The notes below the pieces were generated by a model. It made no database searches, was not told where the DNA came from, and saw only the letters and a program-made list of their open reading frames with translations. Shown piece by piece: positions 142 to 20,058 of a stretch of 38,723 nucleotides of DNA. Numbering within the stretch: position 1 is the first letter of the stretch; each line of letters starts with the position of its first letter. The stretch is from positions 1 through 38,723 of the forward strand of contig JAMPIB010000038.1 in NCBI GenBank assembly GCA_023663085.1, read 5' to 3'. This stretch comes from Ruminococcus sp. (lineage in GTDB: Bacteria; Bacillota; Clostridia; Lachnospirales; Lachnospiraceae). Made by a program: the position numbers and the translations under genes.

Positions 142-169
142 TTGACATTGAGCCGGAATATGATATACT
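142..169 (+). promoter_or_regulatory. Sigma-A type promoter of the cobalamin operon
   Basis: TTGACA (142-147) and TATACT (164-169) are separated by 16 bases. They lie just upstream of the cobalamin riboswitch, so transcription would start near 176 and include the whole aptamer. No other strong promoter-like pair was noticed before the first gene. Confidence 0.65.
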
Positions 170-189
170 TTTGATGAATTGAATATGTA

Positions 190-366
190 ACATACAGGTG
201 TCAAAACAGCGCAGTAAAATCCGCGCTGGTTTTGGTGAAAAGGGAAACAGGTGTAAATCCTGTACGAACTCGTCACCGTAATCAGGGAGCAGAAGCCGCT
301 ATATCACTGGGAAACTGGGAAGATGGCCGATGCGATGATCTTTAAGCCGGGAGACCTGCCTGCATG
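190..366 (+). ncRNA. Cobalamin riboswitch (B12 aptamer)
   Basis: The stretch carries the conserved parts of the cobalamin aptamer in order: the AGGTG start (196-200), AAAAGGGAA with a following hairpin (about 238-262), the GGGAGCAGAAGCCGC core (about 285-299), the CACTGGGAAACTGGGAAG segment (305-322), and the B12 box ending in GGGAGACCTGCC (349-360). Closing pairs can be drawn between the CAGG near 195 and the CCTG near 360. Aptamers of this family bind adenosyl- or other cobalamins and shut down B12 synthesis or uptake genes. It should control the operon starting with the CbiK lipoprotein and ABC transporter. The expression platform is probably the terminator at 545-597. Confidence 0.95.
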
Positions 367-490
367 TAGTACGGAAACGTTTGTTTCAGACCACGAGTAA
401 CTGGTTGTACATGTAGATTTGCGGAAGGTTGTTATCATTAACAATATTCTGCAGATTTGTTTATTATATAGGAAATTGCTCGATGCAGCG

Positions 491-741: not shown

Positions 742-2757
742 ATGAAGAAACGATTAGCAGTACTTATGATGACGGCTCTGGTAGCTTCATTGTGCATGAC
801 AGGCTGTGGAAACGGAGCGGAAGAGACTGTATCGCAGACACGGGAAGAGGATACGGCATCATCAGAAGAAGAGGCACAGCCGCAGGAAAGTGAAGCGGCA
901 GAAGAAACTGTGCCGGAAGGCGGCGAGATGGATGATCAGGCAGCGGCAGATGAGGTTGCAGCGTTGATCGACGCTATTTATGTACAGGAGAGAACAGAAA
1001 ATACTGACGAACAGTGCGCGCAGGCCAAAGCGGCGTGGGACGCGCTGACAGATGCGCAGAAGGAACTGGTGGAAGGCGAGAATGCAGATCCGGATTATTT
1101 TGGACGGGATACCGGAGACGCCTCTAAAGACGATCCGCGCAATCAGGATGACATCGGCGAAAACGAAATTCTGGTAGTCAGCTTTGGTACTTCCTTTAAT
1201 GACAGCCGTGCGGCGGATATCAAAGGGATTGAAGATGCGATACAGGCAGCGAATCCCGACTGGTCAGTCAGAAGAGCGTTCACCGCACAGATCATCATTA
1301 ACCATATACAGGCGCGTGATGGCGAGTCTATTGATAATGTGGATCAGGCATTGGAACGTGCCGTAGCCAACGGCGTGAAAAATCTGCTCATACAGCCGAC
1401 TCATTTGATGCACGGCGCCGAGTATGACGAGTTGATGGAATCCGTTGAGGCTTACAGGGATCAGTTTGAGAATGTAAGCGTTGCAGAACCGCTTCTTGGA
1501 GAAGTTGGAGCGGATGCCTCGGTCGTCAATGCAGATAAGGCGGCGGTTGCGGATGCCATTCTGGCGGCGGCAGTTGTGGATGCCGGCTATGGAAGTCTGG
1601 CAGAAGCGCAGGAAGACGGCACGGCGTTCGTATTTTTAGGACATGGTACATCCCATACGGCCAAGGTGAGTTACAGTCAGATGCAGACGCAGCTGACAGA
1701 TATCGGCTGTACGAATGCGTTTATCGGTACAGTAGAGGGCGAACCGGAGGAAACAGCCTGCGAAGCCGTTATTGAGGCCGTTGCACAGGCAGGTTATACA
1801 AAAGTGATCCTGCGTCCGCTGATGGTCGTGGCAGGCGATCATGCCAATAATGATATGGCAGGTGAAGATGAGGATTCCTGGCTTAGTATGTTCCTTGCTT
1901 CTGGCAGTTTTGAAAGCGTGGATACGCAGATAAGCGGTCTTGGTTCCATTGAGGCCATTCAGGAAATCTATGTAGAGCATACAGCCGTTTCTCTGGAAAA
2001 TATGGGAAATGCATCCGATCAGGCAGCCACAGAGCTGCCTGACGGCACTTATACGGCACAGTTTAAGACGGACAGCAGTATGTTCCATGTGAGTGAAGCC
2101 TGTGAGGGAAAAGGGACTCTGACGGTAAAAAACGGGGAGATGACAATACATATTTCCCTTGCTTCTAAGAAAATCTTAAATCTTTTTCCCGGACTGGCCA
2201 AAGATGCGGCCAAAGAGGGCGCCGTTCTGCTTATACCGACCGAAGATACGGTCACATACAGCGATGGTCTGACGGAAGAAGTGTACGGATTTGATGTGCC
2301 TGTGCCTGCGCTGGGGACAGAATTTGATCTGGCGCTGATCGGTACAAAAGGGACATGGTATGACCATAAAGTAAGCGTTTCCGATCCTGTCCCGCTGGAG
2401 GATACACAGGCTAAAGGCGCTAAAGCGCTAAAAGATGGCACATACAGCATTGAGATGACTTTTGCAGGCGGGAGCGGGAAAGCAGAAATCTTATCGCCTG
2501 TGACTGTGACGGCTGCGGACGGAAAGATGATCGCGGTATTGCAATGGAACAGTCCTAATTATGACTATATGATAGTCGGAGGAGAAAAATACCTTCCGGT
2601 CAATACGGAGGGGGATTCGGCGTTTGAAATCCCGGTCAGGAGTTTTGACGAGCCGCTGGATGTCATCGGCGATACGGTAGCCATGAGCAGGCCGCATGAA
2701 ATAGAATATACGCTCACCTTTCGTCCGGAGACGTTAAAGGAACAGGAAGATCAATAG
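742..2757 (+). CDS. cbiK: Exported lipoprotein sirohydrochlorin cobaltochelatase (CbiK) with C-terminal beta domains
   Basis: The 671-residue product combines a chelatase with lipoprotein export. The ATG at 742 follows AAAAGGAGGAGAC, so an upstream in-frame ATG at 694 was rejected. Residues 1-22 form a lipoprotein signal ending in MTGC (Cys22). An acidic linker and a short helical segment (about 65-115) of a type common in Firmicute surface proteins follow. Residues about 141-418 match CbiK, which inserts Co2+ into sirohydrochlorin; the motifs VSFGTS, QPTHLMHG, LGHGTSH (His301) and GDHANNDMAG (His367) carry the expected metal-site histidines. Two further beta-rich units (about 432-550 and 562-662) both start with DGTY and are not normal in CbiK, which is about 260 residues. 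Their function is unknown; ligand binding is an inference. It heads the riboswitch operon and is followed by ABC importer genes, suggesting action at the cell surface. Confidence 0.9.
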   Translation: MKKRLAVLMMTALVASLCMTGCGNGAEETVSQTREEDTASSEEEAQPQESEAAEETVPEGGEMDDQAAADEVAALIDAIYVQERTENTDEQCAQAKAAWDALTDAQKELVEGENADPDYFGRDTGDASKDDPRNQDDIGENEILVVSFGTSFNDSRAADIKGIEDAIQAANPDWSVRRAFTAQIIINHIQARDGESIDNVDQALERAVANGVKNLLIQPTHLMHGAEYDELMESVEAYRDQFENVSVAEPLLGEVGADASVVNADKAAVADAILAAAVVDAGYGSLAEAQEDGTAFVFLGHGTSHTAKVSYSQMQTQLTDIGCTNAFIGTVEGEPEETACEAVIEAVAQAGYTKVILRPLMVVAGDHANNDMAGEDEDSWLSMFLASGSFESVDTQISGLGSIEAIQEIYVEHTAVSLENMGNASDQAATELPDGTYTAQFKTDSSMFHVSEACEGKGTLTVKNGEMTIHISLASKKILNLFPGLAKDAAKEGAVLLIPTEDTVTYSDGLTEEVYGFDVPVPALGTEFDLALIGTKGTWYDHKVSVSDPVPLEDTQAKGAKALKDGTYSIEMTFAGGSGKAEILSPVTVTAADGKMIAVLQWNSPNYDYMIVGGEKYLPVNTEGDSAFEIPVRSFDEPLDVIGDTVAMSRPHEIEYTLTFRPETLKEQEDQ

Positions 2758-2782
2758 GAAAATTTGCAGGAAGAGCAGGAAG

Positions 2783-4006
2783 ATGAAAAAATATATGCAG
2801 TTTAATCTGGCGCTTCTGGCAGGGATGCTGGGTTTGTGCGGCTGTGGAAACAGTCATGCAGGTTCCGCTTGGACGGATGAAAATAAGGTAGTGGAAACAG
2901 CCGGTATTGAAGCAGGCACGGAGCCGGGGGCAGAAGAAACCGCCGAAACAGGTCAGACATTAGTATATAAAAACAGCATGGAATTGCAATATGCCGAAAA
3001 TTTCACAGTAGATCACTATGCAGGCGGCTATACCCTGCTTACGACACTAATGGATGGCGCGCGTTTTCTGATCGTGCCGGAGGATGCTCAGGTACCGGAA
3101 GAGATAGATGATGAGCCGTTAAGGGAAGATATTATCATCTTACAAAGGCCGATAGAGGATATTTATCTGGTAGCGTCCTCGGCGATGGATCTTTTTAGTA
3201 AATTAGACGGACTGGGGACTATCGCTTTTTCCGGGCAAAAAGAAGATGGCTGGTATATAGAAGAGGCCAGAGAGGCCATGCAAAAAGGTGAGATTCTCTA
3301 TGCCGGTAAGTATAGCAAACCGGATTATGAGCTTATCGTTTCCGGCGGCTGTAAGCTGGCGATCGAAAACATGATGATCTCCCATTCGCCCGAAGTGGTG
3401 GAGAAACTGGAAAGTTTCGGGATTCCTGTGATGATAGAGTATTCAAGCTATGAATCGCATCCGCTTGGCAGAGTGGAGTGGATTAAATTCTACGGCGCGC
3501 TTTTGGGAAAAGAGGAAGAAGCGGAGAAGATATTTGCAGAGCAGACGGCGATCCTTGAAAAGGTGCAGGCTGATGAAAATACGGATAAGACGGTGGCCTT
3601 CTTTTTTGTGACCTCTAACGGCATGATACAGGTGCGCCAGTCCAATGATTATGTAGCGAAGATGATAGAACTGGCGGGCGGAAACTATGTCTTTAAAGAT
3701 CTTGGCGATCCGGATACAAAGCGTTCTACCCTGAACATACAGGTAGAAGAATTTTATGCCGGTGCAAAGGACGCGGATTTTCTGATCTATAACAGTTCGA
3801 TCGATGGCGGCATAGTAAGCGTGGAGGAACTTCTGGATAAGTGTGAACCGCTGGCGGATTTTAAGGCCGTACAGGAAGGAAACGTCTGGTGTACGACCAA
3901 CGATATGTACCAGCAGTCGCTTTCGACAGGTTATCTGATTGAGGACATCCATACTATGCTTTCAGGTGAAACGGAGGATATGCACTATCTTTTTCATCTG
4001 GAATAA
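2783..4006 (+). CDS. ABC transporter substrate-binding lipoprotein (FecB/BtuF-like)
   Basis: The 407-residue product starts with a lipoprotein signal whose lipobox is LCGC (Cys21), so it is anchored outside the membrane. The body resembles periplasmic-binding proteins for siderophores, heme or cobalamin (class III fold): a first lobe up to about residue 200, then a long helix and a second lobe, with family-like segments such as 'vewikfyGallGkeeeAe' and 'LAGGNYVF'. The gene lies 25 bases after the chelatase gene and directly before the permease and ATPase genes. The likely ligand is a corrinoid, tetrapyrrole or metal chelate, judged from the riboswitch and the CbiK neighbour; the exact ligand cannot be read from the sequence. 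Confidence 0.88.
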   Translation: MKKYMQFNLALLAGMLGLCGCGNSHAGSAWTDENKVVETAGIEAGTEPGAEETAETGQTLVYKNSMELQYAENFTVDHYAGGYTLLTTLMDGARFLIVPEDAQVPEEIDDEPLREDIIILQRPIEDIYLVASSAMDLFSKLDGLGTIAFSGQKEDGWYIEEAREAMQKGEILYAGKYSKPDYELIVSGGCKLAIENMMISHSPEVVEKLESFGIPVMIEYSSYESHPLGRVEWIKFYGALLGKEEEAEKIFAEQTAILEKVQADENTDKTVAFFFVTSNGMIQVRQSNDYVAKMIELAGGNYVFKDLGDPDTKRSTLNIQVEEFYAGAKDADFLIYNSSIDGGIVSVEELLDKCEPLADFKAVQEGNVWCTTNDMYQQSLSTGYLIEDIHTMLSGETEDMHYLFHLE

Positions 4007-4039
4007 AAAATTGTGAAAGAAGAAAGGCGCGTGGGTCTG

Positions 4040-5056
4040 ATGCGGGAAAACAGAAAATACAGATATATTGCGGCTTTTATCATATTGGGCGCAGGCACGG
4101 TCGTCTTTTTTATCCTGAATATCTGTATCGGGAGCGTAAACATTGCCCTGCCGGATATCATAAGCACTTTTACAGGAAAGAAAACAGAGGAAACAGTTAT
4201 GAGGATATTGTGGGATATCAGGCTCCCAAGGGCGGCGGCAGTCTTTGTACTGGGCGGCGCGCTGGCACTGGCAGGGTATCTTTTGCAGACTTTTTTCAAT
4301 AACCCGATCGCCGGGCCGTTCGTTCTGGGGATTTCTTCGGGTGCCAAAATGGTGGTGGCACTGATGATGATATTCCTTATGGACAGGTCGATACGGGTGA
4401 CGTCGTTGGCCATGATCCTGGGCGCGTTTGCCGGGGCCATGCTCTCGATGGGGTTCGTATTGCTGATATCCCGCAGAGTTGGTAATATGTCGATGTTAGT
4501 GGTGAGCGGTGTGATGATAGGATATATCTGTTCGGCCGTTACAGAACTGGTTGTAACGTTCGCCGATGATGCGGATATCGTCAATCTCCACAACTGGTCG
4601 CGGGGAAGTTTCTCCGGCATGACCTGGGAAAATGTAAAAGTCATGTCGGTGGTGGTGTTTATCACTTTTGCAGTCGTTTTTTGCATGTCAAAACCGCTCA
4701 GCGCCTATCAGACGGGAGACGTCTATGCGCAGAATGTCGGTGTCGATCTGCGGTTTTTGCGGGTGTGTATCGTTGTTTTTTCCAGTATTTTATCGGCCTG
4801 TATCGTAGCTTTCGCCGGGCCGGTTTCTTTCGTGGGGATCGCGGTGCCGCATCTGGTAAAAAAACTTCTGCATACAACAGAACCGATCCGGATGATACCG
4901 GCCTGCTTCTTAGGCGGCAGCGTTTTCTGCCTGTTCTGCGATTTGCTGGCCAGAACGATGCTTGCGCCGACGGAGTTGAGTATCAGTACGGTGACGGCCA
5001 TATTCGGCGCGCCCGTAGTCCTCTGGATCATGGCGGGAAGACGTATGAGCAGGTGA
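4040..5056 (+). CDS. ABC transporter permease, FecCD/BtuC family
   Basis: The protein of about 338 residues is strongly hydrophobic, with about ten membrane segments, and carries FecCD signatures: RLPRAAAVFVLGGALALAG near the start, a segment beginning NPIAGPFVLGISSGA, and GPVSFVGIAVPHL in the cytoplasmic coupling region. It would form the membrane channel for the preceding binding protein and the following ATPase. The frame is open from a GTG at 4013, but that codon lacks a good ribosome site; ATG 4040, with AGAAAGG twelve bases upstream, fits the family N-terminus better. GTG 4031 is also possible. It ends four bases before the ATPase start. Confidence 0.9.
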   Translation: MRENRKYRYIAAFIILGAGTVVFFILNICIGSVNIALPDIISTFTGKKTEETVMRILWDIRLPRAAAVFVLGGALALAGYLLQTFFNNPIAGPFVLGISSGAKMVVALMMIFLMDRSIRVTSLAMILGAFAGAMLSMGFVLLISRRVGNMSMLVVSGVMIGYICSAVTELVVTFADDADIVNLHNWSRGSFSGMTWENVKVMSVVVFITFAVVFCMSKPLSAYQTGDVYAQNVGVDLRFLRVCIVVFSSILSACIVAFAGPVSFVGIAVPHLVKKLLHTTEPIRMIPACFLGGSVFCLFCDLLARTMLAPTELSISTVTAIFGAPVVLWIMAGRRMSR

Positions 5057-5060
5057 AGGT

Positions 5061-5846
5061 ATGGAAAAAATTTTTTTCAGGGCAAAAAAGATGTGCGTAG
5101 GATATGATGATAAGCCGCTTATCAAAGAAATAGAAATAACCCTGCCAAAAGGCGAGATATTAACCTTGATCGGGCCAAACGGCGCGGGAAAATCCACGGT
5201 CTTAAAAAGTATCGCCGGGCAGCTTCGTCTGCTTGGCGGAACGGTGTATCTGGGAGAAGATGATCTGTCGGAAATGAAAAGAGACAGACTGGCCCGGAGG
5301 ATGTCGGTGGTATTTACCGAGAGACTGCGTTCGGAGATGAAAAGCTGCCGGGATGTCGTCGCTACGGGGCGTTATCCTTATACCGGCTGGTTTGGCGTAT
5401 TGTCCGGGGAGGATGAGCGTATTGTTGATGAGGTGATGGAACTTACACATACCACGGAAATTGCCGGGCTGGATTTTCAAAAGATAAGCGACGGGCAGAA
5501 ACAGCGGGTGATGTTAGCAAGAGCCATCTGTCAGGAGCCGGAGATCGTGATCTTAGACGAGCCGACGTCTTATCTGGATATCAGACATAAACTGGAGTTT
5601 CTGGCCGTACTTAGGAAGATGCGGGATAAAAAGGGCCTTACCGTTATCATGTCGCTGCATGAACTGGAACTGGCCAGACTCGTTTCCGATAAAATACTCT
5701 GCCTGAAAGGCGCGTATGTGGAGCGCTTTGGCAGACCGGAAGAAGTTTTTGAGACGGATTTTATCAAAAGGCTTTTTGATATCGCGCAAGAGGACTTTAT
5801 CCAGGATGAAAAACTTCTGGCTTATGTCAGGCAGATAGGGAGGTAA
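5061..5846 (+). CDS. ABC transporter ATP-binding protein, FepC/BtuD type
   Basis: The 261-residue product is the ATPase of the importer. It shows Walker A GPNGAGKS, a Q-loop region replaced by FTERL, the signature motif ISDGQKQR (usually LSGGQ), Walker B IVILDEP, and the switch histidine in SLHELE. Length and order match siderophore/B12 importer ATPases. It lies four bases after the permease and six before cbiP, so the importer is part of the cobalamin operon. The changed signature motif is a small departure and does not by itself suggest inactivity. Confidence 0.9.
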   Translation: MEKIFFRAKKMCVGYDDKPLIKEIEITLPKGEILTLIGPNGAGKSTVLKSIAGQLRLLGGTVYLGEDDLSEMKRDRLARRMSVVFTERLRSEMKSCRDVVATGRYPYTGWFGVLSGEDERIVDEVMELTHTTEIAGLDFQKISDGQKQRVMLARAICQEPEIVILDEPTSYLDIRHKLEFLAVLRKMRDKKGLTVIMSLHELELARLVSDKILCLKGAYVERFGRPEEVFETDFIKRLFDIAQEDFIQDEKLLAYVRQIGR

Positions 5847-5852
5847 GCGGTC

Positions 5853-7385
5853 ATGGCTAAGGTCATCATGATACAGGGAACAATGTCCGGCGCGGGAAAA
5901 AGCCTGCTTACGGCGGGACTGTGCAGGATCATGAAACGGGACGGCTACCATCCCGCGCCTTTTAAATCCCAGAATATGGCGCTCAATTCCTATATCACCA
6001 AAGAAGGACTGGAAATGGGAAGGGCGCAGGTCATGCAGGCGGAGGCGGCCGGGATCGAACCGCTGGTCTGTATGAATCCCATTTTGTTAAAGCCAACTAA
6101 TCATATAGGTTCACAGGTGATTGTCAATGGTGAGGTCCTGGGGAATATGAGCGCCAGAGAATATTTTTCCTATAAAAAGAAGCTGGTGCCCGATATTATA
6201 AAAGCATTTCACAAACTGGAAGAGACGGCGGACATTATCGTTATAGAAGGCGCGGGAAGTCCGGCGGAAATTAATCTGCGGGAAAATGATATCGTCAATA
6301 TGGGCATGGCCGAGCTGGTGGATGCGCCTGTGCTCTTAGCAGGCGATATCGACAGAGGCGGCGTGTTTGCCCAGCTGTTAGGGACGCTGATGCTCCTTAC
6401 AAAAGAAGAGAAAAAAAGAGTAAAAGGACTTATCATCAATAAATTCCGCGGCGATAAGTCGCTGCTCGATCCCGGTATCGCTATGTTAGAGCAAAAAGGC
6501 GGCGTTCCGGTAAGCGGCGTAATTCCTTATATGGAGATCGCTTTAGAGGATGAGGACAGCCTGACGCAGCGTTTTGACAGGGATAAAAGAAGCAGGATAG
6601 ACATGGCTGTGATCCGTTATCCGCGGATATCGAATTTTACGGATTTTAATATATTCGAGCAGATAGCGGGGGTATCCGTGCGTTATGTGGATTCTGTGAA
6701 AAAACTGGATTCTCCGGATATCGTTTTTTTGCCCGGCAGTAAGAATACGATGAGCGACCTTAGCTGGATGCGTGAAAACGGTCTGGAAGAGGCGGTAAAA
6801 GAACTGGCTAAAAAGATTCCTGTCTGCGGCATCTGCGGCGGTTATCAGATGCTGGGGATGCAGATCAACGACCCGCAGGGACTGGAAACGGGGGGAAAGA
6901 TGCCGGGAATGGGCCTGCTTCCCGTGATGACTACGCTGCAAAAAGAAAAAGTACGCCGTCAGGTGCAGGGAACAATCGGTTGGATAGAGGGCGTGCTGGC
7001 CCCGCTTGCAGGATTGGCGTTTGAGGGCTATGAGATACATATGGGAGAGAGTGTGCCGGCTGATTTGTCATGCTCAGGTAAGGATCGCGCGGTGGCAGGA
7101 GCACAGATGAGGCAGCGGCAGATGGACAAAGACAGTGTTTTTGTATGCGGCGAAAATAAAAATGTGTATGGAACATATGTTCATGGAATCTTTGATAAAG
7201 GCAGGACAGCGGCGGCGCTTGTTGATGCGCTCGCTGAGAAAAAGGGCATCCGTACAGAGAGTGGAGTTGTGAAAGATTATAAGGATTTTAAGGAAAGTCA
7301 ATATGAAAAACTGGCGGATATCCTGTCAGAATATCTGAATATGGAGGAAATCTATGGAATGCTCACAGAAGCGCGGTTCCGGTAA
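5853..7385 (+). CDS. cbiP: Cobyric acid synthase (glutamine-hydrolysing)
   Basis: The 510-residue protein amidates the b, d, e and g side chains of adenosylcobyrinic acid a,c-diamide using ATP and glutamine. The N-terminal P-loop-like part has GTMSGAGKS (9-17) and [10 protein letters not shown]; the C-terminal type I glutamine amidotransferase domain has [11 protein letters not shown] with nucleophile Cys328 and a later His in TYVHGIFD. The length is normal for CbiP/CobQ. It starts six bases after the ATPase gene with a GGGAGG site, and its end overlaps cobT by 32 bases. It lies early in the operon although it acts late in the pathway. Confidence 0.96.
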
Positions 7386-8526
7386 CGGAAATCCTGACAG
7401 GGAAATTCCGGGCAGTCATGTTTCATGCAGTCAGGATGCCGGCTGTGAAAGAGAATATCATGCCGGAAGGCTGGCGGAGTTTACGATAGAGGCCCCTGAT
7501 CAGACGGTTTATCAAAAGGTTCTGGATAATTGGGACAGGATAGCGAAACCTCTGGATGGTATGGGAAAATTTGAGCGGATAACGGCGCAGATAGGCGCAA
7601 TTCTGGGAACCGGGGATATTGATCTTGTCAAAAAAGCAGTCATTATCATGTGCGCGGATAACGGTATCGTGGAAGAAGGGGTCAGTCAGTCCGGACAGGA
7701 AGTTACGCGGGCGGTAGCGGCACAGATGGGTAAAGGAGCCTCTTCTGTCTGTAGAATGGCCTCGTTTCTGGGAGCCGATACCGTTCCGATCGACATCGGT
7801 ATCAACTGTGCAGACCCCATACCGGGTGTGCTTGCCAAAAAGATACGCCGTGGCACGAGAAATTTCAGGAAAGAACCAGCCATGACGGAAAGCGAGGCTG
7901 TCCGGGCCATTTTTACCGGAATAGAAACGGTCTTTGCCTGTAAAGAAAAAGGTTATCAGATACTGGCCATAGGAGAAATGGGGATCGGCAACACGACGAC
8001 GAGCAGCGCGGTAACGGCGGCCCTGTTACAGTGTGATGTAGAGACGGTAACAGGAAGAGGCGCCGGGTTAGACGATGAAAAATTACTGCATAAACGGCAG
8101 GTTATCGCAGAAGCGCTCACCAGATATCGTCTGACCGGAGCAGACCCCCTTCTTATCCTGCAGACGGTCGGCGGGCTGGACATTGCGGGGCTGACAGGCG
8201 TCTGTATCGGCGGCGCGTTATATCATATACCAATCGTTTTGGATGGCGTGATCAGTATGAGCGCCGCGCTTCTGGCCGAGAAGATAGTGCCCGGTACGGT
8301 GCGTTATCTGATTCCCTCGCATAAAGGCAGGGAACCGGCCGTAGAAAAGCTGATAAAAGCCCTGCATTCAGAGCCTGTCATAGACGCGGATATGGCGCTC
8401 GGCGAAGGAACAGGAGCCGTTATGATGCTGTCACTGCTGGATATGGCGCTGTGTATTTATCAGGGAAAAACATCTTTTTCAGATATGGAAATTGAGCCAT
8501 ATGAGAGATATCTGAAAAAAATATGA
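7354..8526 (+). CDS. cobT: Nicotinate-nucleotide:dimethylbenzimidazole phosphoribosyltransferase
   Basis: The enzyme makes alpha-ribazole phosphate, the activated lower ligand of cobalamin. The 390-residue protein has an N-terminal extension of about 40 residues before the family start, then [26 protein letters not shown], the phosphate-binding [13 protein letters not shown], and the catalytic glutamate in GEGTGAVM (Glu351). The start is supported by a GGAGG site eight bases upstream and makes a 32-base overlap with cbiP; the extension is not explained by the known fold. No gene for making the benzimidazole base is in the window, so the base must come from elsewhere. Confidence 0.95.
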
Positions 8527-8541: not shown

Positions 8542-9138
8542 ATGATGATCTTGATAATCGGCGGCAGCGGGAGCGGTAAATCATCTTATGCGGAAAAGAC
8601 CGCACTTACACTTGCCGAAAAAGAGGGGCAGCAGACAGAAGAGAGAAGAAATACAGAAATAAGGAAATATTATCTGGCAACCATGAAAGTCTATGACGAA
8701 GAAGGCAGAAAAAAAGTAATGCGGCATCAAAAGATGCGCGCCGGCAAAGGGTTTCTGACGATCGAACAGCCGACAGATATTGCCAAAGCGCTTGAAAAGA
8801 TGGAGGCAGGTACGGGCGTGGTATTGTTAGAGTGCCTTTCTAATCTGACTGCCAATGAGATGTTTACGGAAGAAGACGAAACAGTCCGGACGGGCGTAGA
8901 CTCTGAAATCAGAATTGCAGAAAAAATAGTGCAGGAAATCAGTGTCATCAAAGAGTGCATGACGCATCTGGTAGTTGTTGGCAATAACGTATTTGAAGAC
9001 GGAATCCTCTATGATGAAACTACGATGTCTTATATCCGTGTGCTTGGACATATCAACCGGAAACTTGCCATAGCGGCTGACGAAGTGATAGAGGTGGCAG
9101 CCGGGATTCCTGTTATATTAAAGAAAAATTTATCTTGA
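8542..9138 (+). CDS. cobU: Adenosylcobinamide kinase / adenosylcobinamide-phosphate guanylyltransferase
   Basis: This 198-residue bifunctional enzyme phosphorylates adenosylcobinamide and then transfers GMP to it. It has the P-loop IGGSGSGKSSYAE (about 6-18), the guanylylated histidine region MRHQKMR (His62), a Walker B-like VVLLECLSN, and the C-terminal VGNNVFEDGI segment where most CobU proteins read evGxGivp. It starts 16 bases after cobT at tandem ATG codons (8542 or 8545). A shorter CobU-like paralog lies two genes downstream. Confidence 0.93.
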   Translation: MMILIIGGSGSGKSSYAEKTALTLAEKEGQQTEERRNTEIRKYYLATMKVYDEEGRKKVMRHQKMRAGKGFLTIEQPTDIAKALEKMEAGTGVVLLECLSNLTANEMFTEEDETVRTGVDSEIRIAEKIVQEISVIKECMTHLVVVGNNVFEDGILYDETTMSYIRVLGHINRKLAIAADEVIEVAAGIPVILKKNLS

Positions 9139-9159: not shown

Positions 9160-9927
9160 ATGCGGATACTAAAATCTTTTTTAATTGCCTTTTCCACATA
9201 CTCGAAGATTCCAGTGCCGGTTTTTGGCTGGGAAGAGGAGAATATGAAATATATATATTGTTTTTTCCCCTGGGTCGGAGCGGTGATAGGGATCTGTTTT
9301 TACTTTTGGAATGTTTGCTGCGGATACTTTCAGATTGGGGAGATATGCCGCCTGACGATAGGGCTGGCAATCCCGCTCCTTATTACGGGCGGTTTTCATG
9401 TCGATGGTTTTATGGATACGATGGACGCCCTGCATTCGTATCAGGAAAAGGAAAGAAAACTGGAAATCTTAAAGGATTCCCATATCGGGGCGTTTGCGGT
9501 CATTATGCTGGCGGCGTATGGTCTGATTGTTTTGGGAGCCTTGTCGGAAATAAAGCAGATATCGTTACTTAAGATCGTGTGCGCGGGATTTTTCCTATCA
9601 CGCTGTCTTTGCGGGATCAGTGCGGTTACTTTTCCATTAGCCAGAAAAGGCGGAATGCTTTATCTGTTTGCAGACCGTGCCCATAAAAGGATTGTCAAAG
9701 GTTCTTTATATCTGCAAAGCAGTCTCTGTATTCTTTTTATGCTGTCCTGTTCTCCGGCGGTGGGAGCGCTTGTTACAGTGGCGGCGTTTTTGGCTTTTTT
9801 TTATTATGACAGGCAGAGCAGAAAAGAATTTGGCGGGGTCACGGGTGATACGGCGGGGTATTTTATTTTGCTGTGTGAAGGCGTTATGATCGTCGCGGCA
9901 GCGGCAGGAGGGTATTTTTTCAAATGA
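9160..9927 (+). CDS. cobS: Adenosylcobinamide-GDP ribazoletransferase (cobalamin synthase)
   Basis: This 255-residue integral membrane enzyme joins adenosylcobinamide-GDP and alpha-ribazole (phosphate) in the last step of nucleotide-loop assembly. It has the family start 'FSTYSKIPVP', the metal-binding GGFHVDGFMDTMDAL, and DSHIGAFAV, with about six hydrophobic segments. An AGAAAGAGG site precedes ATG 9160. Its stop overlaps the next start as ATGA, implying translational coupling to the CobU-like gene. Confidence 0.95.
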   Translation: MRILKSFLIAFSTYSKIPVPVFGWEEENMKYIYCFFPWVGAVIGICFYFWNVCCGYFQIGEICRLTIGLAIPLLITGGFHVDGFMDTMDALHSYQEKERKLEILKDSHIGAFAVIMLAAYGLIVLGALSEIKQISLLKIVCAGFFLSRCLCGISAVTFPLARKGGMLYLFADRAHKRIVKGSLYLQSSLCILFMLSCSPAVGALVTVAAFLAFFYYDRQSRKEFGGVTGDTAGYFILLCEGVMIVAAAAGGYFFK

Positions 9928-10340
9928 GATTAGTGATAGGCGGATATGCGCAGGGAAAATTAGATTATGTATTGACGAAATACCGTCTGACAAAAGAGGC
10001 TGTATGGGACGGTATCCTGCCTGAGCCGGGAGAGGCCGGGCAAAATCCTGCTCTGTCAGAGCCGGGAGAGGCATCTGATACGATAGTGGTGGATCATCTG
10101 CATCAATGGGTGAAAAAACGTATTTTGGATGGCGGATGTCCGGAGGAAGAAATAGAGGCGTTCTTAGCGCATTGTGAGAACTGTATCCTGATCAGCGACG
10201 AGATTGGAAACGGTATCGTGCCGATAGACGCCGGGGAAAGAATGTACAGAGAACGCATGGGGAGACTGCTCATACAGCTTGCCGCGCAGGCACAGAGTGT
10301 GGAGCGGGTCATGTGCGGGATTGGTCAGGTGATCAAATGA
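9924..10340 (+). CDS. Short CobU-like protein, probably altered or non-bifunctional
   Basis: The 138-residue protein resembles the two ends of CobU without its middle. The N-terminus GGYAQGKLDY keeps the GxxxxGK part of the P-loop but has Leu where Ser/Thr normally binds Mg-ATP. The C-terminal half has ISDEIGNGIVP, ERMYRERMGRL and a terminal CGIGQ segment, matching the CobU pattern of 'EvGxGivP...R.fRd..G'. The region with the guanylylated histidine is missing, replaced by a short linker with a 14-base direct repeat (10023-10036 and 10059-10072) encoding two EPGEA units. A full cobU is present upstream, so this may be a partner, regulator or degenerate copy. It is coupled to cobS and cobC by ATGA overlaps. 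Confidence 0.75.
   Translation: MRLVIGGYAQGKLDYVLTKYRLTKEAVWDGILPEPGEAGQNPALSEPGEASDTIVVDHLHQWVKKRILDGGCPEEEIEAFLAHCENCILISDEIGNGIVPIDAGERMYRERMGRLLIQLAAQAQSVERVMCGIGQVIK
10023..10072 (+). repeat. 14-base direct repeat inside the short CobU-like gene
   Basis: GAGCCGGGAGAGGC occurs at 10023-10036 and again at 10059-10072, 36 bases apart and in frame. It encodes two similar EPGEA units in a linker. It looks like a small slippage duplication. Confidence 0.7.
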
Positions 10341-10978
10341 TATTGACTTTTATCAGGCATGGAAAGACCAGAGCCAATGAAGAGCGCCGGTATCTGGGCA
10401 AAACGGACGAACCGCTCTCAGAGAAAGGGATACGTGATCTGCTTTCTTATAAAGAGCAGGGGATTTATCCGAAGATTGACGCTTTGTTTGTCAGCCCTAT
10501 GAAGAGGTGTCTGCAGACGGCGGAAATCTTATATCCGCAACTGCCTGCGCAGATCATTCCGGAATGGGAAGAGATAGACTTTGGCCGCTTTGAATATAAA
10601 AATTATGAGATGTTAAAAAACGACGCGGCTTATCAGGCATGGATCGACAGTAATGGAACATTGCCTTTTCCGGAGGGGGAAAGCAGAGAGGCGTTTTTGA
10701 TACGGTGTGAAAAAGGTTTTCGCAGGATGTGTGAGCGACTGTGTCTGCCGCGGCAGGATGCCCTGACCGGGCCGCAGGCGAAAGAAAGAGCGGCAGGGCT
10801 TATCGTTCATGGCGGTACGATCATGGCATTGTTGAGTCTTTATGGTGGAAAAGAGTATTTTGCTTATCAGGTGCGGCCGGGGGATGGATATCAATGTCGG
10901 ATGTGTGTTCTGAAAAGTGAGGGGCAGATGGAGAAAGTCAGCCTGAAAGAAATACAGGCATTGCAGGAGGATGGATGA
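10337..10978 (+). CDS. cobC: Histidine phosphatase family protein, probable alpha-ribazole phosphatase
   Basis: The 213-residue protein has the phosphohistidine motif FIRHGKT (His8) at its start, LGKTDEPLSEKG, the SPMKRCLQTAEIL segment, the acid region EEIDFGRFE, and the second histidine in LIVHGGTIM. CobC removes the phosphate from alpha-ribazole phosphate or adenosylcobalamin phosphate; the family is broad, so this role rests on its place between cobS and cbiB. ATG 10337 overlaps the preceding stop as ATGA and places RHG at the usual distance from the N-terminus; an in-frame GTG at 10313 was rejected. Confidence 0.87.
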   Translation: MILTFIRHGKTRANEERRYLGKTDEPLSEKGIRDLLSYKEQGIYPKIDALFVSPMKRCLQTAEILYPQLPAQIIPEWEEIDFGRFEYKNYEMLKNDAAYQAWIDSNGTLPFPEGESREAFLIRCEKGFRRMCERLCLPRQDALTGPQAKERAAGLIVHGGTIMALLSLYGGKEYFAYQVRPGDGYQCRMCVLKSEGQMEKVSLKEIQALQEDG

Positions 10979-11997
10979 AATATCATATTTTGGCGTTTTT
11001 CTTTGGTTTTATACTGGATCTGTTATTCGGCGATCCGTATTTTCTGCCGCATCCGATACGGCTGATCGGGAAACTGATAACGGGGCTGGAGAAAAGACTG
11101 CGCGGAGGGCAGAGCAAAGTTGAAAAGCGGATACAGTTCCGGCGGGGAATATGGCTTGTTATTATCGTGCTCGCGGCTGTCGTGAGCGTGACGTGGGCGC
11201 TTTTATTTCTTTCCTACCGGGTGCATCCCTATATGGGACTTATTGTGGAAACAGTTATGACGTATCAGATTCTGGCGGTAAAGTGTCTGAAAGTCGAAAG
11301 CATGAAAGTTTATCGGTGTTTACGGGATGGGGATACGGAGAAAGCCAGAGAGGCTGTGTCCATGATCGTGGGCAGGGATACGGAGAGTCTGGATGAAGAG
11401 GGTATCGCGAAAGCGGCGATCGAAACGGTGGCGGAGAATACTTCGGATGGTGTGATCGCGCCGATGCTCTATACCGCACTTGGCGGGCCGGTGCTTGGCT
11501 TTTTTTACAAGGCGGTCAATACGATGGACTCCATGATCGGCTATCAGAACGAGACCTATCTGTATTTTGGCAGGGCGGCCGCCAGACTGGACGATCTGGT
11601 GAACTTTATCCCGGCCAGGATCAGCGCCTGTTTTATGATAGCATCTACTTTTTTACTGGAAAAAAATATATTTGCCGAAAAATCCGCCAAAACGCCAGAC
11701 TGCGGAGCTTGCGTTTTTTCCTATAAACGGGCGGTCATTATATATAAGAGGGATCGCAGAAAACACGCCAGTCCGAATTCTGCGCAGACGGAATCGGTCT
11801 GTGCCGGCGCGCTGGGTATCAGACTGGCGGGGGACGCCGTTTATTTTGGCCAGAGAGTAATTAAACCGTATATCGGGGACGCCGGACGGAACGTGGAATA
11901 TGAGGATATCAGACGGGCGGATCGTCTGCTGTATGTGAGCGCGTGGTCGTGTGAAATAGTATGTCTTGCTCTGCTGGTCATCTTATACATCCGATGA
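10975..11997 (+). CDS. cbiB: Adenosylcobinamide-phosphate synthase
   Basis: The 340-residue membrane protein attaches aminopropanol phosphate to adenosylcobyric acid. The start, FGFILDLLFGDPYFLPHPIR, is characteristic of CbiB/CobD, followed by the region GRDTESLDEEGIAKAA, the motif ETVAENTSDGVIAP and the segment NTMDSMIGYQNETY. Several hydrophobic segments occur throughout. Its ATG overlaps the cobC stop as ATGA. A gap of 72 bases follows before cobD, the first clear break in the cluster; no promoter was identified there. Confidence 0.95.
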   Translation: MKYHILAFFFGFILDLLFGDPYFLPHPIRLIGKLITGLEKRLRGGQSKVEKRIQFRRGIWLVIIVLAAVVSVTWALLFLSYRVHPYMGLIVETVMTYQILAVKCLKVESMKVYRCLRDGDTEKAREAVSMIVGRDTESLDEEGIAKAAIETVAENTSDGVIAPMLYTALGGPVLGFFYKAVNTMDSMIGYQNETYLYFGRAAARLDDLVNFIPARISACFMIASTFLLEKNIFAEKSAKTPDCGACVFSYKRAVIIYKRDRRKHASPNSAQTESVCAGALGIRLAGDAVYFGQRVIKPYIGDAGRNVEYEDIRRADRLLYVSAWSCEIVCLALLVILYIR

Positions 11998-12069
11998 GAT
12001 CATATTCGCTGGTTATGAAAATAGAGTTTTGCAATTGCCCAAGTATGAAGATTGAGGAAAGGAATCGTG

Positions 12070-13125
12070 ATGAAAAGAATGCACGGCGGTGACATATATA
12101 GAAATCATGTGGAAATAGATTTTTCCGTAAACCTTAATCCGCTCGGAATGCCGGAGACGGTAAAGGCGGCACTGTATAAGGCGGTCGGGGACTGCGACAG
12201 GTATCCCGATAGGGAGGCGGAAAGCTTAAAGCGGGCAGTTGCACAGATGCTGTCGGCGCCGGAGGACTATCTGCTTTTTGGAAACGGTGCTTCAGAACTC
12301 TTTCTGGCTATTGTACATGCCGTGAAGCCGCGAAAGACAGTCATACCCGTGCCATCTTTTTACGGTTATGAATATGCGGCAAAGGCCGTGGGGGGAGAAA
12401 TCGTTTATCAGGAAATGAAACCGGAAGAGGGTTTTGCCATGGCAGATGCGGGGAAGATGATGTTAAATGAGGAAACCGACCTGCTGTTTCTGGCAAATCC
12501 TAATAATCCTACCGGAAAACTATTAGAAAAAAAGGCATTGCTAAATTTATTACAGCACTGTAAGGAAAAAGAAATCCTGGTCGTGCTGGACGAATGTTTT
12601 ATTGAGTTTTGCGGCCGGGAGTTTTCCCTGCTTTCGGAGATAGAGCGGTTTGAGAATCTGCTGCTTGTCGGCGCTTTTACGAAGATATTTTCTATTCCCG
12701 GAGTGCGTCTGGGGTATCTGCTATGCAGCGATACCGCGCTTCTTACAAAGATTAAAAGGCAACTTCCGGAATGGAACCTTTCTGTTCTGGCGCAGGAGGC
12801 CGGCTGTGCGTGTGCGGGAGAGACGGATTTTTTGTGCAGGACAATAGCCTGTGTCAGAAAAGAGAGGGCTTTTCTGGAAGAGGGCCTAAACAAGCTGGGG
12901 TTCCGGGTCTATCCTTCCGCGGCTGATTTCATCTTATTTTACAGCGAAGAGCCGCTGTATGCGAAACTGTTGGAAAAAGGGATACTTATCAGGGACTGTG
13001 CGGATTTCAGGGGACTCGGACGGGGATTTTACCGGATTGCAGTAAAAAGCAGGGAAGAAAATGAGAGATTACTGCGGGAAATGAGTTTCGCAACTGCTTG
13101 GAAAGGAAAAGATGGAAAGGAATAA
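12070..13125 (+). CDS. cobD: Threonine-phosphate decarboxylase, PLP-dependent
   Basis: This 351-residue type I fold PLP enzyme makes (R)-1-amino-2-propanol phosphate for CbiB from L-threonine phosphate. It shows HGGDIYRN and 'DFSVNLNPLG' at the start, GNGASELF, NPNNPTGKLL, DECFIEF, and the PLP lysine in AFTKIFSIPG (Lys205) with RLGYLL after it. ATG 12070, seven bases after AGGAAAGG, is preferred to an in-frame TTG at 12052. It lies directly after its partner gene cbiB and five bases before cbiC. Histidinol-phosphate aminotransferase is related, but HGGD and the context favour CobD. Confidence 0.93.
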   Translation: MKRMHGGDIYRNHVEIDFSVNLNPLGMPETVKAALYKAVGDCDRYPDREAESLKRAVAQMLSAPEDYLLFGNGASELFLAIVHAVKPRKTVIPVPSFYGYEYAAKAVGGEIVYQEMKPEEGFAMADAGKMMLNEETDLLFLANPNNPTGKLLEKKALLNLLQHCKEKEILVVLDECFIEFCGREFSLLSEIERFENLLLVGAFTKIFSIPGVRLGYLLCSDTALLTKIKRQLPEWNLSVLAQEAGCACAGETDFLCRTIACVRKERAFLEEGLNKLGFRVYPSAADFILFYSEEPLYAKLLEKGILIRDCADFRGLGRGFYRIAVKSREENERLLREMSFATAWKGKDGKE

Positions 13126-13130
13126 AAACG

Positions 13131-13763
13131 ATGAAGGAAATAGAATATCTTCCGCCGGAGGAGATTGAAAAAAGAAGTTTTGAGATCATCGATGGGGAAC
13201 TGTCGGCGAGAGGCATCCATCTGCCGGCGGCGGAGGAACTGATAATCAAAAGGGTCATCCATACGAGCGCGGATTTTGATTATGCCGGGACGCTGTGCTT
13301 TTCCAAAGGAGCGGTGGCCGTGATGAAAGAATTGATAAAAAACGGAGCCGATATCGTAACGGATACCAACATGGCCTTAGCGGGTATCAATAAAAAGAAG
13401 CTGGCGGAATATGGCGGGAGCGCCTGCTGTTTCATGGCACAGGAAGAGACGATACGGATCGCCAGACAAAGAAATATCACGCGGGCGGCTGTCAGTATGG
13501 AGCGTGCGGCGGCCATCGAAAAACCGCTCATCTTTGCGATCGGCAACGCACCGACCGCACTGATAAAATTATATGAGATGATGCAGAAGAGCGACTGGCG
13601 GCCCGCCTTTATCATTGGCGTTCCGGTAGGATTTGTCAACGTGGAGGCGGCCAAGGAACTGATCATAGAGACTGATATCCCCTATATCGTCAACCGGGGA
13701 AGAAAAGGCGGCAGTAATGTGGCGGCAGCCATCTGTAATGCAGTCTTATATCAATTACCATGA
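13131..13763 (+). CDS. cbiC: Cobalt-precorrin-8 methylmutase
   Basis: The 210-residue enzyme moves a methyl group from C11 to C12 to form cobyrinic acid. It contains the catalytic histidine in VIHTSADFDY (His44), DTNMALAGINK, AIGNAPTAL and GVPVGFVNVEAAKE, all characteristic of CbiC/CobH. ATG 13131 follows AAAGGA; the frame is open from 13098, overlapping cobD, but that start gives an atypical N-terminus. The gene is followed by the fold-back element that fills the gap to cbiD. Confidence 0.95.
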   Translation: MKEIEYLPPEEIEKRSFEIIDGELSARGIHLPAAEELIIKRVIHTSADFDYAGTLCFSKGAVAVMKELIKNGADIVTDTNMALAGINKKKLAEYGGSACCFMAQEETIRIARQRNITRAAVSMERAAAIEKPLIFAIGNAPTALIKLYEMMQKSDWRPAFIIGVPVGFVNVEAAKELIIETDIPYIVNRGRKGGSNVAAAICNAVLYQLP

Positions 13764-13768: not shown

Positions 13769-13972
13769 CAGGGGAATGCGAAACAGCAGGGTGGGCAGGC
13801 AGAGGAAAAAGGATTCTGCTGAAAGGCCCTTGAAAAACGTCGGCACTTAGTGAAAAAGTTGCAAAGCAGCTTTTGAACTTAGTACCGCTACGATTTTTCA
13901 CGGAGCGAAAGCGTGCCTCGAAGCAGAAACTTTTTCCTCTGCCTGCCCGCCCTGCTGTCTCGCATTCACCTG
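13769..13972 (+). repeat. 204-base fold-back element (long imperfect inverted repeat)
   Basis: Arms of about 52 bases (13769-13820 and 13922-13972) are complementary apart from a few mismatches, one G-U pair and a bulge; the best run is 13774-13811 against 13930-13967. Nested inside are GGCAC/GTGCC (13842-13846 with 13913-13917), GTGAAAAA/TTTTTCAC (13850-13857 with 13894-13901) and a GCGAAAGC mini-hairpin (13905-13912). The element begins five bases after the cbiC stop and ends before the cbiD ribosome site. It has no T-run, so it is not a usual terminator. A MITE-like insertion or an mRNA processing/stability element are the main candidates. Confidence 0.85.
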
Positions 13973-14001
13973 TTACAATAAAAACGGGAGGGATAAGTTC
14001 G

Positions 14002-15135
14002 ATGCGATACGGTTTCACGACCGGGAGCTGCGCGGCGGCTGCGGCGAAAGCGGCCGCGTATATGCTTCTTACTGGCAGAAAGAAAACAGAGATCACCATT
14101 GAGACGCCAAAGGGGATTCCCTATACAGCGCAGATTCTGGATATCCGCCGTGGTGAAAACGAAGTCAGCTGTGCGGTGGAAAAAGATGGCGGCGACGATC
14201 CGGATGTTACAAACGGCGCGTGGATCTACGCCAGCGTTTCTTATGAACAGTGCGGACAGTGCGGACAGAGTGAAGCGCGGCTGGTCATAAAAGGCGGTAT
14301 CGGCGTAGGAAGAGTGACCCGAAAAGGACTCGACCAGCCTGTAGGAGAAGCGGCCATTAATCATGTTCCGCGCGAGATGATTTGTAAGGAAGTCAGGGAA
14401 GTGTGCCGGTTTACAGATTATACAGGAACGCTTCTGATAGAAATATCGGTGCCGGAAGGAGAAAAAATTGCGGCGCATACGTTCAATCCCAGACTCGGTA
14501 TCACAGGCGGGATATCCATTCTGGGAACGAGCGGTATCGTGGAGCCTATGAGCAGCCGGGCAATTCTGGAGACGATACGTCTGGAACTGCGTCAAAGAAA
14601 AGAAGAAGGATTTGCCTATGTGGCAGTCTCGCCGGGAAATTACGGACTGGAATTTATAAAAAAAACGTATGGCTATGATCTGGACAGGAGTGTAAAATGC
14701 AGTAATTTTATCGGCGAGACTATTGATATGGCGGTAGAACTTGGCTTTGCAAGGATGCTGCTTACAGGGCATATCGGGAAACTGATAAAAGTGGCGGGCG
14801 GTATTATGAATACGCATTCCAAAGAGGCGGACTGCCGGATGGAACTTCTGGCCGCTTTTGCCATCCGCGAAGGAATAGATGGTGAAACAGCCCGCCGGAT
14901 ACTGGAATGTGCGACAACCGAAGAGGCATTGCCTTTCTTAAAAGAAAGCGGGAAACTGTATCCTGTCATGGAACATATCGCAGAGCGTATCTGTTATTAT
15001 ATGGAAAAACGCGCCGGAGGCCGGATGAAAACAGATTGTATTTTATATGCCAACGGCTATGGAGAATTGGCGAAAAGTAAGGGGGCGAAAGAATGGTTTA
15101 TTTTGTTGGCGCAGGAACAGGAGCGGCCGATCTGA
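14002..15135 (+). CDS. cbiD: Cobalt-precorrin-5B C1-methyltransferase
   Basis: The 377-residue protein methylates C1 in the anaerobic pathway. The N-terminus YGFTTGSCAAAAAKAA is the family hallmark, followed by DGGDDPDVTNGAW, GGIGVGRVTRKGL and, near the C-terminus, LLTGHIGKLIKVAGG with NTHSKEADCR. ATG 14002 is nine bases after GGGAGGG; the frame is open from 13873, but those codons run through the fold-back element and do not belong to CbiD. The 3' end overlaps cbiF by 43 bases. Confidence 0.95.
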   Translation: MRYGFTTGSCAAAAAKAAAYMLLTGRKKTEITIETPKGIPYTAQILDIRRGENEVSCAVEKDGGDDPDVTNGAWIYASVSYEQCGQCGQSEARLVIKGGIGVGRVTRKGLDQPVGEAAINHVPREMICKEVREVCRFTDYTGTLLIEISVPEGEKIAAHTFNPRLGITGGISILGTSGIVEPMSSRAILETIRLELRQRKEEGFAYVAVSPGNYGLEFIKKTYGYDLDRSVKCSNFIGETIDMAVELGFARMLLTGHIGKLIKVAGGIMNTHSKEADCRMELLAAFAIREGIDGETARRILECATTEEALPFLKESGKLYPVMEHIAERICYYMEKRAGGRMKTDCILYANGYGELAKSKGAKEWFILLAQEQERPI

Positions 15136-15896
15136 TCACCGTCAGGGGGATGCGGCTTTTGCAAAAAGCGGACGTTATCATATATGCCGGTTCTTTGGTC
15201 AATCCGGCATTGCTTTCCTATGCGGATAAGGATTGCGAGATACATAACAGCGCCAGGCTTACGCTGGAAGAAGTGCTGGCGATCATGCAAAGAGCGGAGG
15301 CGGAGGGGAAGACAACGGTACGCCTGCATACGGGGGAGCCGAGTATTTATGGGGCGGTCAGAGAGCAGATGGATGAACTGGACAAGCGCGGGATTGCTTA
15401 CGAGAGCTGTCCGGGCGTCAGCGCCTGCTTCGGGGCGGCGGCTTCTTTGAATCTGGAATATACTCTGCCGGGCGTTTCGCAGTCTCTTATCATCACCAGA
15501 ATGGAAGGCAGGACGAAGGTGCCGGAGAAAGAGAGCATCGAAGCGCTGGCGGCGCACCGAGCGTCTATGGCCATCTATTTAAGCGCGGGCATGTTAAAAG
15601 AACTGAGCAGGCGCTTACTACAGGGCGGATACGAGGCAGATACGCCGGCGGCGCTTGTCTATAAAGCGACCTGGCCGGAAGAAGAGGCTTATGTCTGTAC
15701 AGTCGCTACATTATATGAAACAGCGGCGGAGCACGGCATTTCCCAAACGGCTGTTGTGTTAGTAGGAGAGGTGGTCGCGCATCGGCATTATGAGAGATCG
15801 CGGCTGTATGCAGCCGATTTTCAGACAGGATTCCGGGAGGCAAAAACGGGCGGAAGAAAAACGACAGGCATAAATAAAAACGACAGTCACGAATAA
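15093..15896 (+). CDS. cbiF: Cobalt-precorrin-4 C11-methyltransferase
   Basis: This 267-residue SAM-dependent tetrapyrrole methylase starts VYFVGAGTGAADLIT and has DVIIYAGSLVNP, RLHTGEPSIYGA, SCPGVSACFGAAA and a segment beginning LPGVSQSLIITR. The 'YAGSLV' and 'TGDPS/TGEPS' motifs separate CbiF/CobM from CbiH and CbiL. A GGGGG site inside cbiD serves the start. The last 20 or so residues are polar and appear to be a non-conserved tail. Confidence 0.94.
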   Translation: MVYFVGAGTGAADLITVRGMRLLQKADVIIYAGSLVNPALLSYADKDCEIHNSARLTLEEVLAIMQRAEAEGKTTVRLHTGEPSIYGAVREQMDELDKRGIAYESCPGVSACFGAAASLNLEYTLPGVSQSLIITRMEGRTKVPEKESIEALAAHRASMAIYLSAGMLKELSRRLLQGGYEADTPAALVYKATWPEEEAYVCTVATLYETAAEHGISQTAVVLVGEVVAHRHYERSRLYAADFQTGFREAKTGGRKTTGINKNDSHE

Positions 15897-15926
15897 AACG
15901 ATAAGTATAAATCAGTGAGGACATTA

Positions 15927-20031: not shown

Positions 20032-20058
20032 CTGTACCGACTGTACCGGTTGCACCGG
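20032..20058 (+). repeat. Three imperfect 9-base tandem units before cbiA
   Basis: CTGTACCGA, CTGTACCGG and TTGCACCGG run head to tail at 20032-20058, in the 95-base gap between the fusion gene and cbiA. They look like a short slippage-type repeat. No function is visible. Confidence 0.6.

Follow-up and report, generated by a model that had tools for sequence, protein, structure and literature searches.

The CbiK chelatase of Salmonella (1qgo) is a single domain of 264 amino acids (aa) that resides in the cytoplasm and belongs to a pathway that includes CbiL. In Gram-positive bacteria, Isd/Hbp NEAT hemophores and Hup/Isd importers carry heme and are iron-controlled. An exported CbiK is found in Desulfovibrio vulgaris, the periplasmic cobaltochelatase CbiKP (2xvx, 2xvz), for which the available part of the literature describes no chain of lipoprotein, NEAT domains and binding protein. 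In Porphyromonas gingivalis Iht (ihtABCDE), a CbiK-like lipoprotein is followed by a binding protein, a permease and an ATPase; this system has a TonB receptor and has been viewed as serving heme/iron, and no NEAT domains are described in the available part of the report (PMC10913741). Here, we analyzed the first 38,723 nucleotides of a Ruminococcus sp. contig (JAMPIB010000038.1, assembly GCA_023663085.1), referred to as the window, which starts at the first base of the contig. A cobalamin riboswitch precedes genes for an exported CbiK, an ATP-binding cassette (ABC) importer and a cbi/cob operon. Unlike the Salmonella enzyme, the window CbiK has 671 aa and NEAT-like domains; unlike CbiKP, it belongs to a chain of lipoprotein, NEAT domains and binding protein; unlike Iht, the system has NEAT domains, a B12 riboswitch and a cbi operon; and unlike Isd/Hbp and Hup/Isd, it is headed by a chelatase, controlled by a B12 riboswitch and carries NEAT sequence under the Pfam cut-off. 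The exported CbiK, the NEAT relay and the importer together seem, on balance, to form the outward-facing part of a route by which early B12 precursors are salvaged.

Roper et al. (2000) reportedly dealt with corrin synthesis in P. gingivalis. Bacteria with corrin genes that cannot make the ring have been predicted by Shelton et al.; in the available part of that paper (PMC6461909), only 5-aminolevulinic acid was tested and no uptake machinery is named. These tetrapyrrole precursor salvagers, mostly Firmicutes and 78% host-associated, share with the window's genome corrin and loop genes without early ring genes, and the same part attributes the lack of precorrin-2 synthesis in P. gingivalis to cited work. 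Precorrin-2 salvagers are one predicted class in the available part of PMC8123684. A search of the open-licence PMC literature turned up no Gram-positive example of an importer paired with a CbiK that is exported or a lipoprotein, and no report that sirohydrochlorin or factor III is taken up, which is no proof of absence; the available parts of PMC6593275, PMC7689651 and PMC12654859 are silent on both.

The initial annotation had described the first gene product as a CbiK-type chelatase with a lipoprotein signal at Cys22, and this was borne out. The open reading frame (ORF) is intact from ATG 742, preceded by AAGGAGG, to the stop at 2757, and the N-terminus MKKRLAVLMMTALVASLCMTGC forms a lipobox with Cys22. 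Signal peptides and lipoboxes of the window proteins were judged by eye. Such a signal should anchor the protein outside the membrane. The Pfam CbiK model (PF06180) matched residues 143-414 with an E value of 2e-66 (224.4 bits, cut-off 26.2). The NCBIfam model NF047852, 'sirohydrochlorin cobaltochelatase', gave 179.6 bits, below its cut-off of 400, so the window CbiK is not classed as that equivalog. H301, E332 and H367 aligned with residues of 1qgo at the His/Glu/His positions that we take to be catalytic. The metal-binding residue of Desulfovibrio CbiKP is His207, according to the available part of PMC4063343.

Relatives were collected in a scan of GTDB-species contigs, which gave at least 578. 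The best 80 loci were kept and, with 23 fetched regions, make up the 103 loci considered here. By record title, the best 80 are mostly from Lachnospiraceae, plus Oscillospiraceae and others; all were selected for an exported CbiK and are uninformative on how often it is absent. The catalytic His/Glu/His was present in 108/108 exported CbiK domains, including 23/23 loci found by hidden Markov model; the other 80/103 loci were found partly through the pattern DHANNDM, which favors the second His of the triad. The intact triads would argue against an inactive lipoprotein, an outcome that the initial annotation had named as refuting. A lipobox rule was satisfied by 92/103 loci, and L107 and L068 fit by eye. 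The lipobox of L117 is doubtful, L115, L116, L122, L127 and L128 were read by eye as having a Sec-type signal in its place, and contig edges truncate L049, L130 and L162. A mis-called signal or a pseudogene can be ruled out, as the ORF is intact and signals are widespread across the loci. Exported CbiK ORFs of 889-1090 aa occurred in L149, L159, L165, L166 and L167, several with a tandem pair of CbiK domains.

The C-terminus of the window CbiK contains two NEAT-like domains, D1 and D2, which the initial annotation lacked. The Pfam NEAT model matched residues 431-482 below threshold, scoring 23.0 bits for the whole protein and 15.6 and 16.5 bits for pieces, all below the cut-off of 32.8. D2 has a NEAT fold, and D1 was covered only by tandem alignments to IsdH NEAT2-3 and IsdB. 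A profile of the D1-D2 alignment found no NEAT protein among PDB sequences; its lone match (E 0.93) was to another protein. Heme-binding NEAT domains carry a YxxxY pair on the last strands. In a by-eye sequence alignment, these positions read Y-D-H-K-V in D1, with an invariant W-Y-D, and H-E-I-E-Y in D2. Across the 103 loci the NEAT-like domains occur as parts of CbiK, as proteins of their own or as parts of the binding protein, and the order CbiK, D1, D2, binding protein was near-universal.

The importer genes also agreed with the initial annotation, which had placed them directly after the chelatase: the Peripla_BP_2, FecCD and ABC ATPase genes follow on the same strand. The binding protein bears its own lipobox (Cys21, by eye). 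Its profile gave five matches in the PDB, the closest Lmo2184 (E 2.4e-10) and the third IsdE, with no BtuF among the five. The best-scoring NCBIfam model for the permease was BtuC (213.8 bits), under the equivalog cut-off of 334. The importer lies directly downstream of the exported CbiK in 70/103 loci (69 by rule, L117 by eye), which speaks for the conserved link whose absence the initial annotation had considered. In 2 loci the binding protein is the only importer component seen, in 3 it lies upstream, and 7 have less than 5 kb of downstream sequence. L117, titled Treponemataceae, has the whole system, through either inter-phylum transfer or a binning error. Gram-positive bacteria have no outer membrane, and positions 1-12000 of the window, where the contig begins at base 1, held no unassigned long ORF that might be a TonB-dependent receptor. 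The B12 riboswitch reported upstream of these genes was confirmed by a strong match (Table), and a riboswitch preceded the exported cbiK in 24/26 loci read (the window, then groups of 8/8, 2/3, 6/6 and 7/8); L164 had none.

The initial annotation also spoke of a full B12 operon. The late genes are indeed there (cbiP, cobT/U/S/C, cbiB, cobD, cbiC/D/F/G/H, cbiJ-E-T and cbiA), but a search of the window and the rest of the genome found no cbiL, no SUMT gene and no cbiK or cbiX for a cytoplasmic chelatase. Every ORF of the operon has an assignment, which rules out a CbiL substitute within it. The genome (3.44 Mb, 95 contigs, 90.7% complete) has a single CbiK, the exported one; neither CbiX nor a second CbiK was found at this completeness, so the cytoplasmic chelatase that would have spoken against the initial annotation did not appear. 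CbiL, HemC and SUMT were not found either, in a search that did not cover HemA, HemB, HemD and HemL. Four tetrapyrrole methylases were present: CbiF, CbiH and CbiE of the operon, and one on another contig that we guess from its length to be RsmI. The steps after ring contraction are thus present and none of the earlier steps searched for was found; with CbiL missing, the corrin ring pathway is incomplete. The proposed capture of outside tetrapyrroles thereby gained a reason that it did not have before, the missing HemC and SUMT. The supply of sirohydrochlorin alone would not suffice, as CbiL is missing too.

We examined 37 genomes of the genus. CbiK occurred in 23, one copy each, in open frames of 362-762 aa, and an export signal was seen in 22/22 with a readable N-terminus (G001 is cut at a contig edge). 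CbiD was present in the same 23 genomes, and neither gene in the other 14 (Fisher 1.6e-10, phylogeny-blind). No CbiL scored over the cut-off in any of the 37 genomes, and CbiX-profile matches fell solely on the CbiK genes themselves. HemC and SUMT occurred together, in 6/23 CbiK-bearing genomes, and neither was found in the rest. In addition to the window, CbiK regions were fetched from 22 genus genomes and from G053, of another family. The importer directly follows CbiK, with cob/cbi genes in the locus, in 15/22 genus regions and in G053. The other 7 have no cbi/cob gene near the exported CbiK, and their cbi genes lie on another contig; the match with CbiD holds for these genomes as well. Five of the 7 standalone loci were read for RNA. 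A B12 riboswitch precedes cbiK in L045, L054, L060 and L065, and none was found in L056, with only 97 bases upstream. All five have a flavin mononucleotide riboswitch within about 6 kb of the standalone cbiK.

Some of the genus carries a second type of cbi operon (L078, L080, L074), without a cobalamin riboswitch at gathering score in the stretches read; the distant standalone cbiK does have one. The extra gene of this operon type, between cbiF and cbiG, was considered as a CbiL substitute and ruled out, being a GH26 glycosyl hydrolase (L078:9824-10813, Pfam E 5.7e-56); similar ORFs were seen by eye in L080, L081 and L082. A PDZ/radical-SAM/DUF512 gene stands amid the cbi genes at L074:7114-8538 (Pfam), and another of this type, by eye, between cbiJ-type ORFs at L208:1798-3255.

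The wider survey comprised 74 genomes with an exported CbiK: the 23 of the genus, G053, and 50 named genomes, drawn from the 80 loci for isolates, contig size and variety before their other gene content was known. The named genomes carry no completeness figure, and counts at 95% or above refer to genus members. HemC was missing in 50/74 genomes, SUMT in 49/74 and both in 48/74. By class, 32/74 were without HemC, SUMT, CbiL and a signal-less CbiK, 15/74 were without HemC, SUMT and a signal-less CbiK but had CbiL, 5/74 had HemC, SUMT and CbiL without a signal-less CbiK, and 4/74 were mixed; two further classes are taken up below. In these counts, divergent copies in G070 and G101 and a signal-less copy in G078 were not scored as signal-less CbiK, the signal-less copy of G084 is a contig-edge fragment, and G062 and G073 were counted as having CbiL though just under the cut-off. 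G083 is an exception: its single match in the methylase search was its SUMT, and no CbiF or CbiH was seen.

The strongest single pattern came from 16 of the 48 genomes without HemC and SUMT, all named ones, which retain CbiL. In 15 of them (not G082), the exported CbiK is the sole CbiK with a full catalytic triad, and one is a single 3.19-Mb contig (L141/G101). This pattern would be expected if cobalt were inserted outside and CbiL acted inside, and it points to sirohydrochlorin being metallated outside and cobalt-sirohydrochlorin being imported. The CbiK tree shows 16 state changes for HemC and 15 for CbiL, which suggests repeated losses, though some are assembly gaps; for example, G098 has no CbiL and its near twin G097 has one.

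Beyond the exported ORF, an additional CbiK gene was found in 12/18 HemC-bearing genomes versus 4/32 without HemC; G068, which lacks HemC and has two long exported-type copies, was left out of this count. The readable copies had no signal, and several lay beside CbiL or CobA-HemD. Among side findings, divergent short signal-less copies occur at L172:3775-4551 (G070), which lost the Glu and the second His, and at L181 about 9178-9954 (G101), without the GDHA motif; given these losses, they are probably not chelatases. A signal-less CbiK is fused to an ABC ATPase-like part at L173:7608-9269 (by eye), and CbiK and CbiL matches share one open frame at L174:4778-6292.

The salvage route would operate as follows. 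At low cobamide, the riboswitch would permit expression of the operon. CbiK would bind an isobacteriochlorin released by neighboring cells, either sirohydrochlorin or the C20-methylated factor III, and insert Co(II). The metallated ring would then be handed from CbiK through D1 and D2 to the binding protein, as heme is along Isd/Hup proteins, and the ABC importer would take it inside for CbiH, or for CbiL where this is retained. We infer that the exported CbiK loads rather than strips, that the metal is cobalt, and which substrate it takes. In the genus, which has no CbiL, the imported compound should already bear the C20 methyl, as in factor III, or an unrecognised enzyme does this step. That the corrin pathway begins outside the cell, with the importer supplying cobalt-factor III to whole lineages that make cobamides without tetrapyrrole synthesis, a cytoplasmic chelatase or CbiL of their own, is a tentative idea that we hold to be rather doubtful. 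If true, it would mean a B12 pathway split across the community and an unrecorded class of precursor dependence, and similar reasoning might extend to Iht of Porphyromonas.

Several observations weigh against the salvage route. Without CbiL, neither sirohydrochlorin nor cobalt-sirohydrochlorin alone can feed CbiH by known chemistry, and CbiL was missing in 9/9 genus members with an exported CbiK that are at least 95% complete. Poor assembly is therefore a weak explanation for the genus, though a possible one for single metagenome-assembled genomes. Overall, 40/74 genomes had no CbiL, whereas 87.1% of the Shelton salvagers have it (available part of PMC6461909); the CbiL-less genomes might be filed under other classes in that scheme. 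Ten of the 74 genomes keep an exported CbiK despite having a signal-less CbiK, in one case a contig-edge fragment, together with HemC, SUMT and CbiL, and 8/74 have HemC and SUMT but no CbiL and could make precorrin-2 themselves. G061, G065, G080 and G099 have HemC, SUMT, CbiL and only the exported CbiK, in a search that did not include CbiX. The early genes of HemC-bearing genomes without a signal-less CbiK could serve siroheme: in G065 their neighbors are asrB and a sulfite reductase C gene, and in G080 a sulfite-reductase-like gene and one of CysG N-terminal type lie close by. Those of G013 form a hemC, cobA-hemD, hemB, hemL cluster. On independent pairs, HemC versus a signal-less CbiK was not significant (median p 0.25; same direction 2.9 and opposite 0.1 of 7 supported pairs), so this association is not claimed. 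No importer gene was found beside the exported CbiK in 21/103 loci. Finally, heme would be just as plausible a ligand for the NEAT domains and the heme-type binding protein.

Alternatively, the importer might be a BtuFCD-like carrier of cobamide or cobinamide; the exported, NEAT-bearing CbiK would then be a mere corrinoid or tetrapyrrole receptor whose chelatase activity is now irrelevant. B12 riboswitches often precede btu genes, and the best-scoring permease model was BtuC. Desulfovibrio also has cbiK-cbiL and btuCDF under one B12 element (available part of PMC545781). However, a mere receptor need not retain the triad in all 108 exported domains, and the binding-protein profile matched Lmo2184, another periplasmic binding protein and IsdE, rather than BtuF. 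The CbiK of the genus also tracks the corrin ring gene cbiD exactly, and cobamide uptake needs no ring genes. We therefore regard this explanation as unlikely.

Less probable still is heme or porphyrin acquisition of the Iht/FetB and Isd type, in which CbiK would bind heme and swap or remove its metal, the NEAT domains would hand it on, iron or porphyrin would enter through the importer, and the position in a B12 operon would be a regulatory accident. FetB (9b86, named heme-binding protein), which we take to be IhtB, is the second-best solved relative by sequence, and the NEAT fold and the closeness of the binding protein to Lmo2184 point the same way. The gene order of Iht is identical, and FetB is reported to put Mn into protoporphyrin (available parts of PMC10913741 and PMC13402209). 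Such a system would hardly account for the riboswitch before nearly every locus read or for the all-or-none pairing with cbiD in the genus. No known chemistry leads from heme to corrin, and the usual YxxxY pair is not evident in D1 or D2 by sequence alignment by eye. Capture of Co(II) by the exported CbiK and its partners, bare or on a tetrapyrrole carrier, to supply a complete pathway whose early genes happen to be missing from drafts, is very improbable: CbiK does bind Co(II) (Desulfovibrio CbiKP crystal 2xvz, by its title), cobalt supply genes occur in B12 operons of other organisms and most genomes are drafts, that of the window included, but HemC, SUMT and CbiL are jointly missing in 5 of the 9 genus members at least 95% complete, we know of no FecCD importer for cobalt ions, and bare Co(II) would hardly call for NEAT domains and a heme-type binding protein.

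The features of the window are listed in the Table. Promoter-like sites were found by consensus matching only and are not enriched versus shuffles of the region. A 6S RNA (RF00013) was also found at 28521-28717 (63.6 bits).

Table. Features of the riboswitch-controlled chelatase, importer and cbi/cob operon of the window
Feature	Position	Strand	Evidence or remarks
Promoter-like site TTGACA-16-TATACT	142..169	+	11/12 consensus match, upstream of riboswitch
Cobalamin riboswitch (RF00174)	179..377	+	95.9 bits, E 7.6e-23, gathering score 31.5
Exported CbiK-type chelatase, 671 aa	742..2757	+	Lipoprotein signal (Cys22), helical linker, CbiK domain, two NEAT-like domains
CbiK domain, residues 143-414	1168..1983	+	His301, Glu332, His367
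D1, NEAT-like, about residues 431-551	2032..2394	+	Sub-cut-off NEAT match; tandem alignments
D2, NEAT-like, about residues 559-668	2416..2745	+	
Lipoprotein substrate-binding protein (Peripla_BP_2)	2783..4006	+	Pfam; profile versus PDB
FecCD-type permease	4013..5056	+	Pfam; best NCBIfam match BtuC
Importer ABC ATPase	5061..5846	+	Pfam/NCBIfam
cbiP/cobQ	5853..7385	+	
cobT	7354..8526	+	
cobU	8542..9138	+	
cobS	9160..9927	+	
Shorter second CobU-like ORF	9924..10340	+	
cobC-like histidine phosphatase	10313..10978	+	His_Phos_1; name cobC from gene order
cbiB	10975..11997	+	
cobD-like aminotransferase	12052..13125	+	Aminotran_1_2; name cobD from gene order
cbiC	13098..13763	+	
cbiD	13873..15135	+	
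cbiF	15093..15896	+	
cbiG	15915..17057	+	
cbiH (ring contraction)	17103..17849	+	
cbiJ-cbiE-cbiT fusion	17830..20001	+	
cbiA	20058..21560	+	

Exported CbiK (Desulfovibrio; FetB/IhtB), the Iht gene order, a B12 element over cbiK-cbiL and btuCDF, and predicted precursor dependence were already known from the available parts of the sources. As far as the open-licence PMC literature was searched, four things are new: the NEAT relay, the link with a corrin operon whose start is missing, a class without CbiL, and the wide occurrence among gut Firmicutes. Taken together, the results suggest that many gut bacteria apparently without early-ring genes import and complete rings begun by other organisms. 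If so, CbiL-less genomes may be misplaced when B12 producers or cobinamide salvagers are called from genome content, and the FetB/IhtB chelatase of Porphyromonas may serve corrin salvage besides heme. A handful of purified proteins and some cultured isolates would be enough to test which ring intermediate is shared and by what route it enters. For the precursor salvagers, the system offers a candidate uptake route under B12 control, present by record titles in many gut Lachnospiraceae and some Oscillospiraceae.

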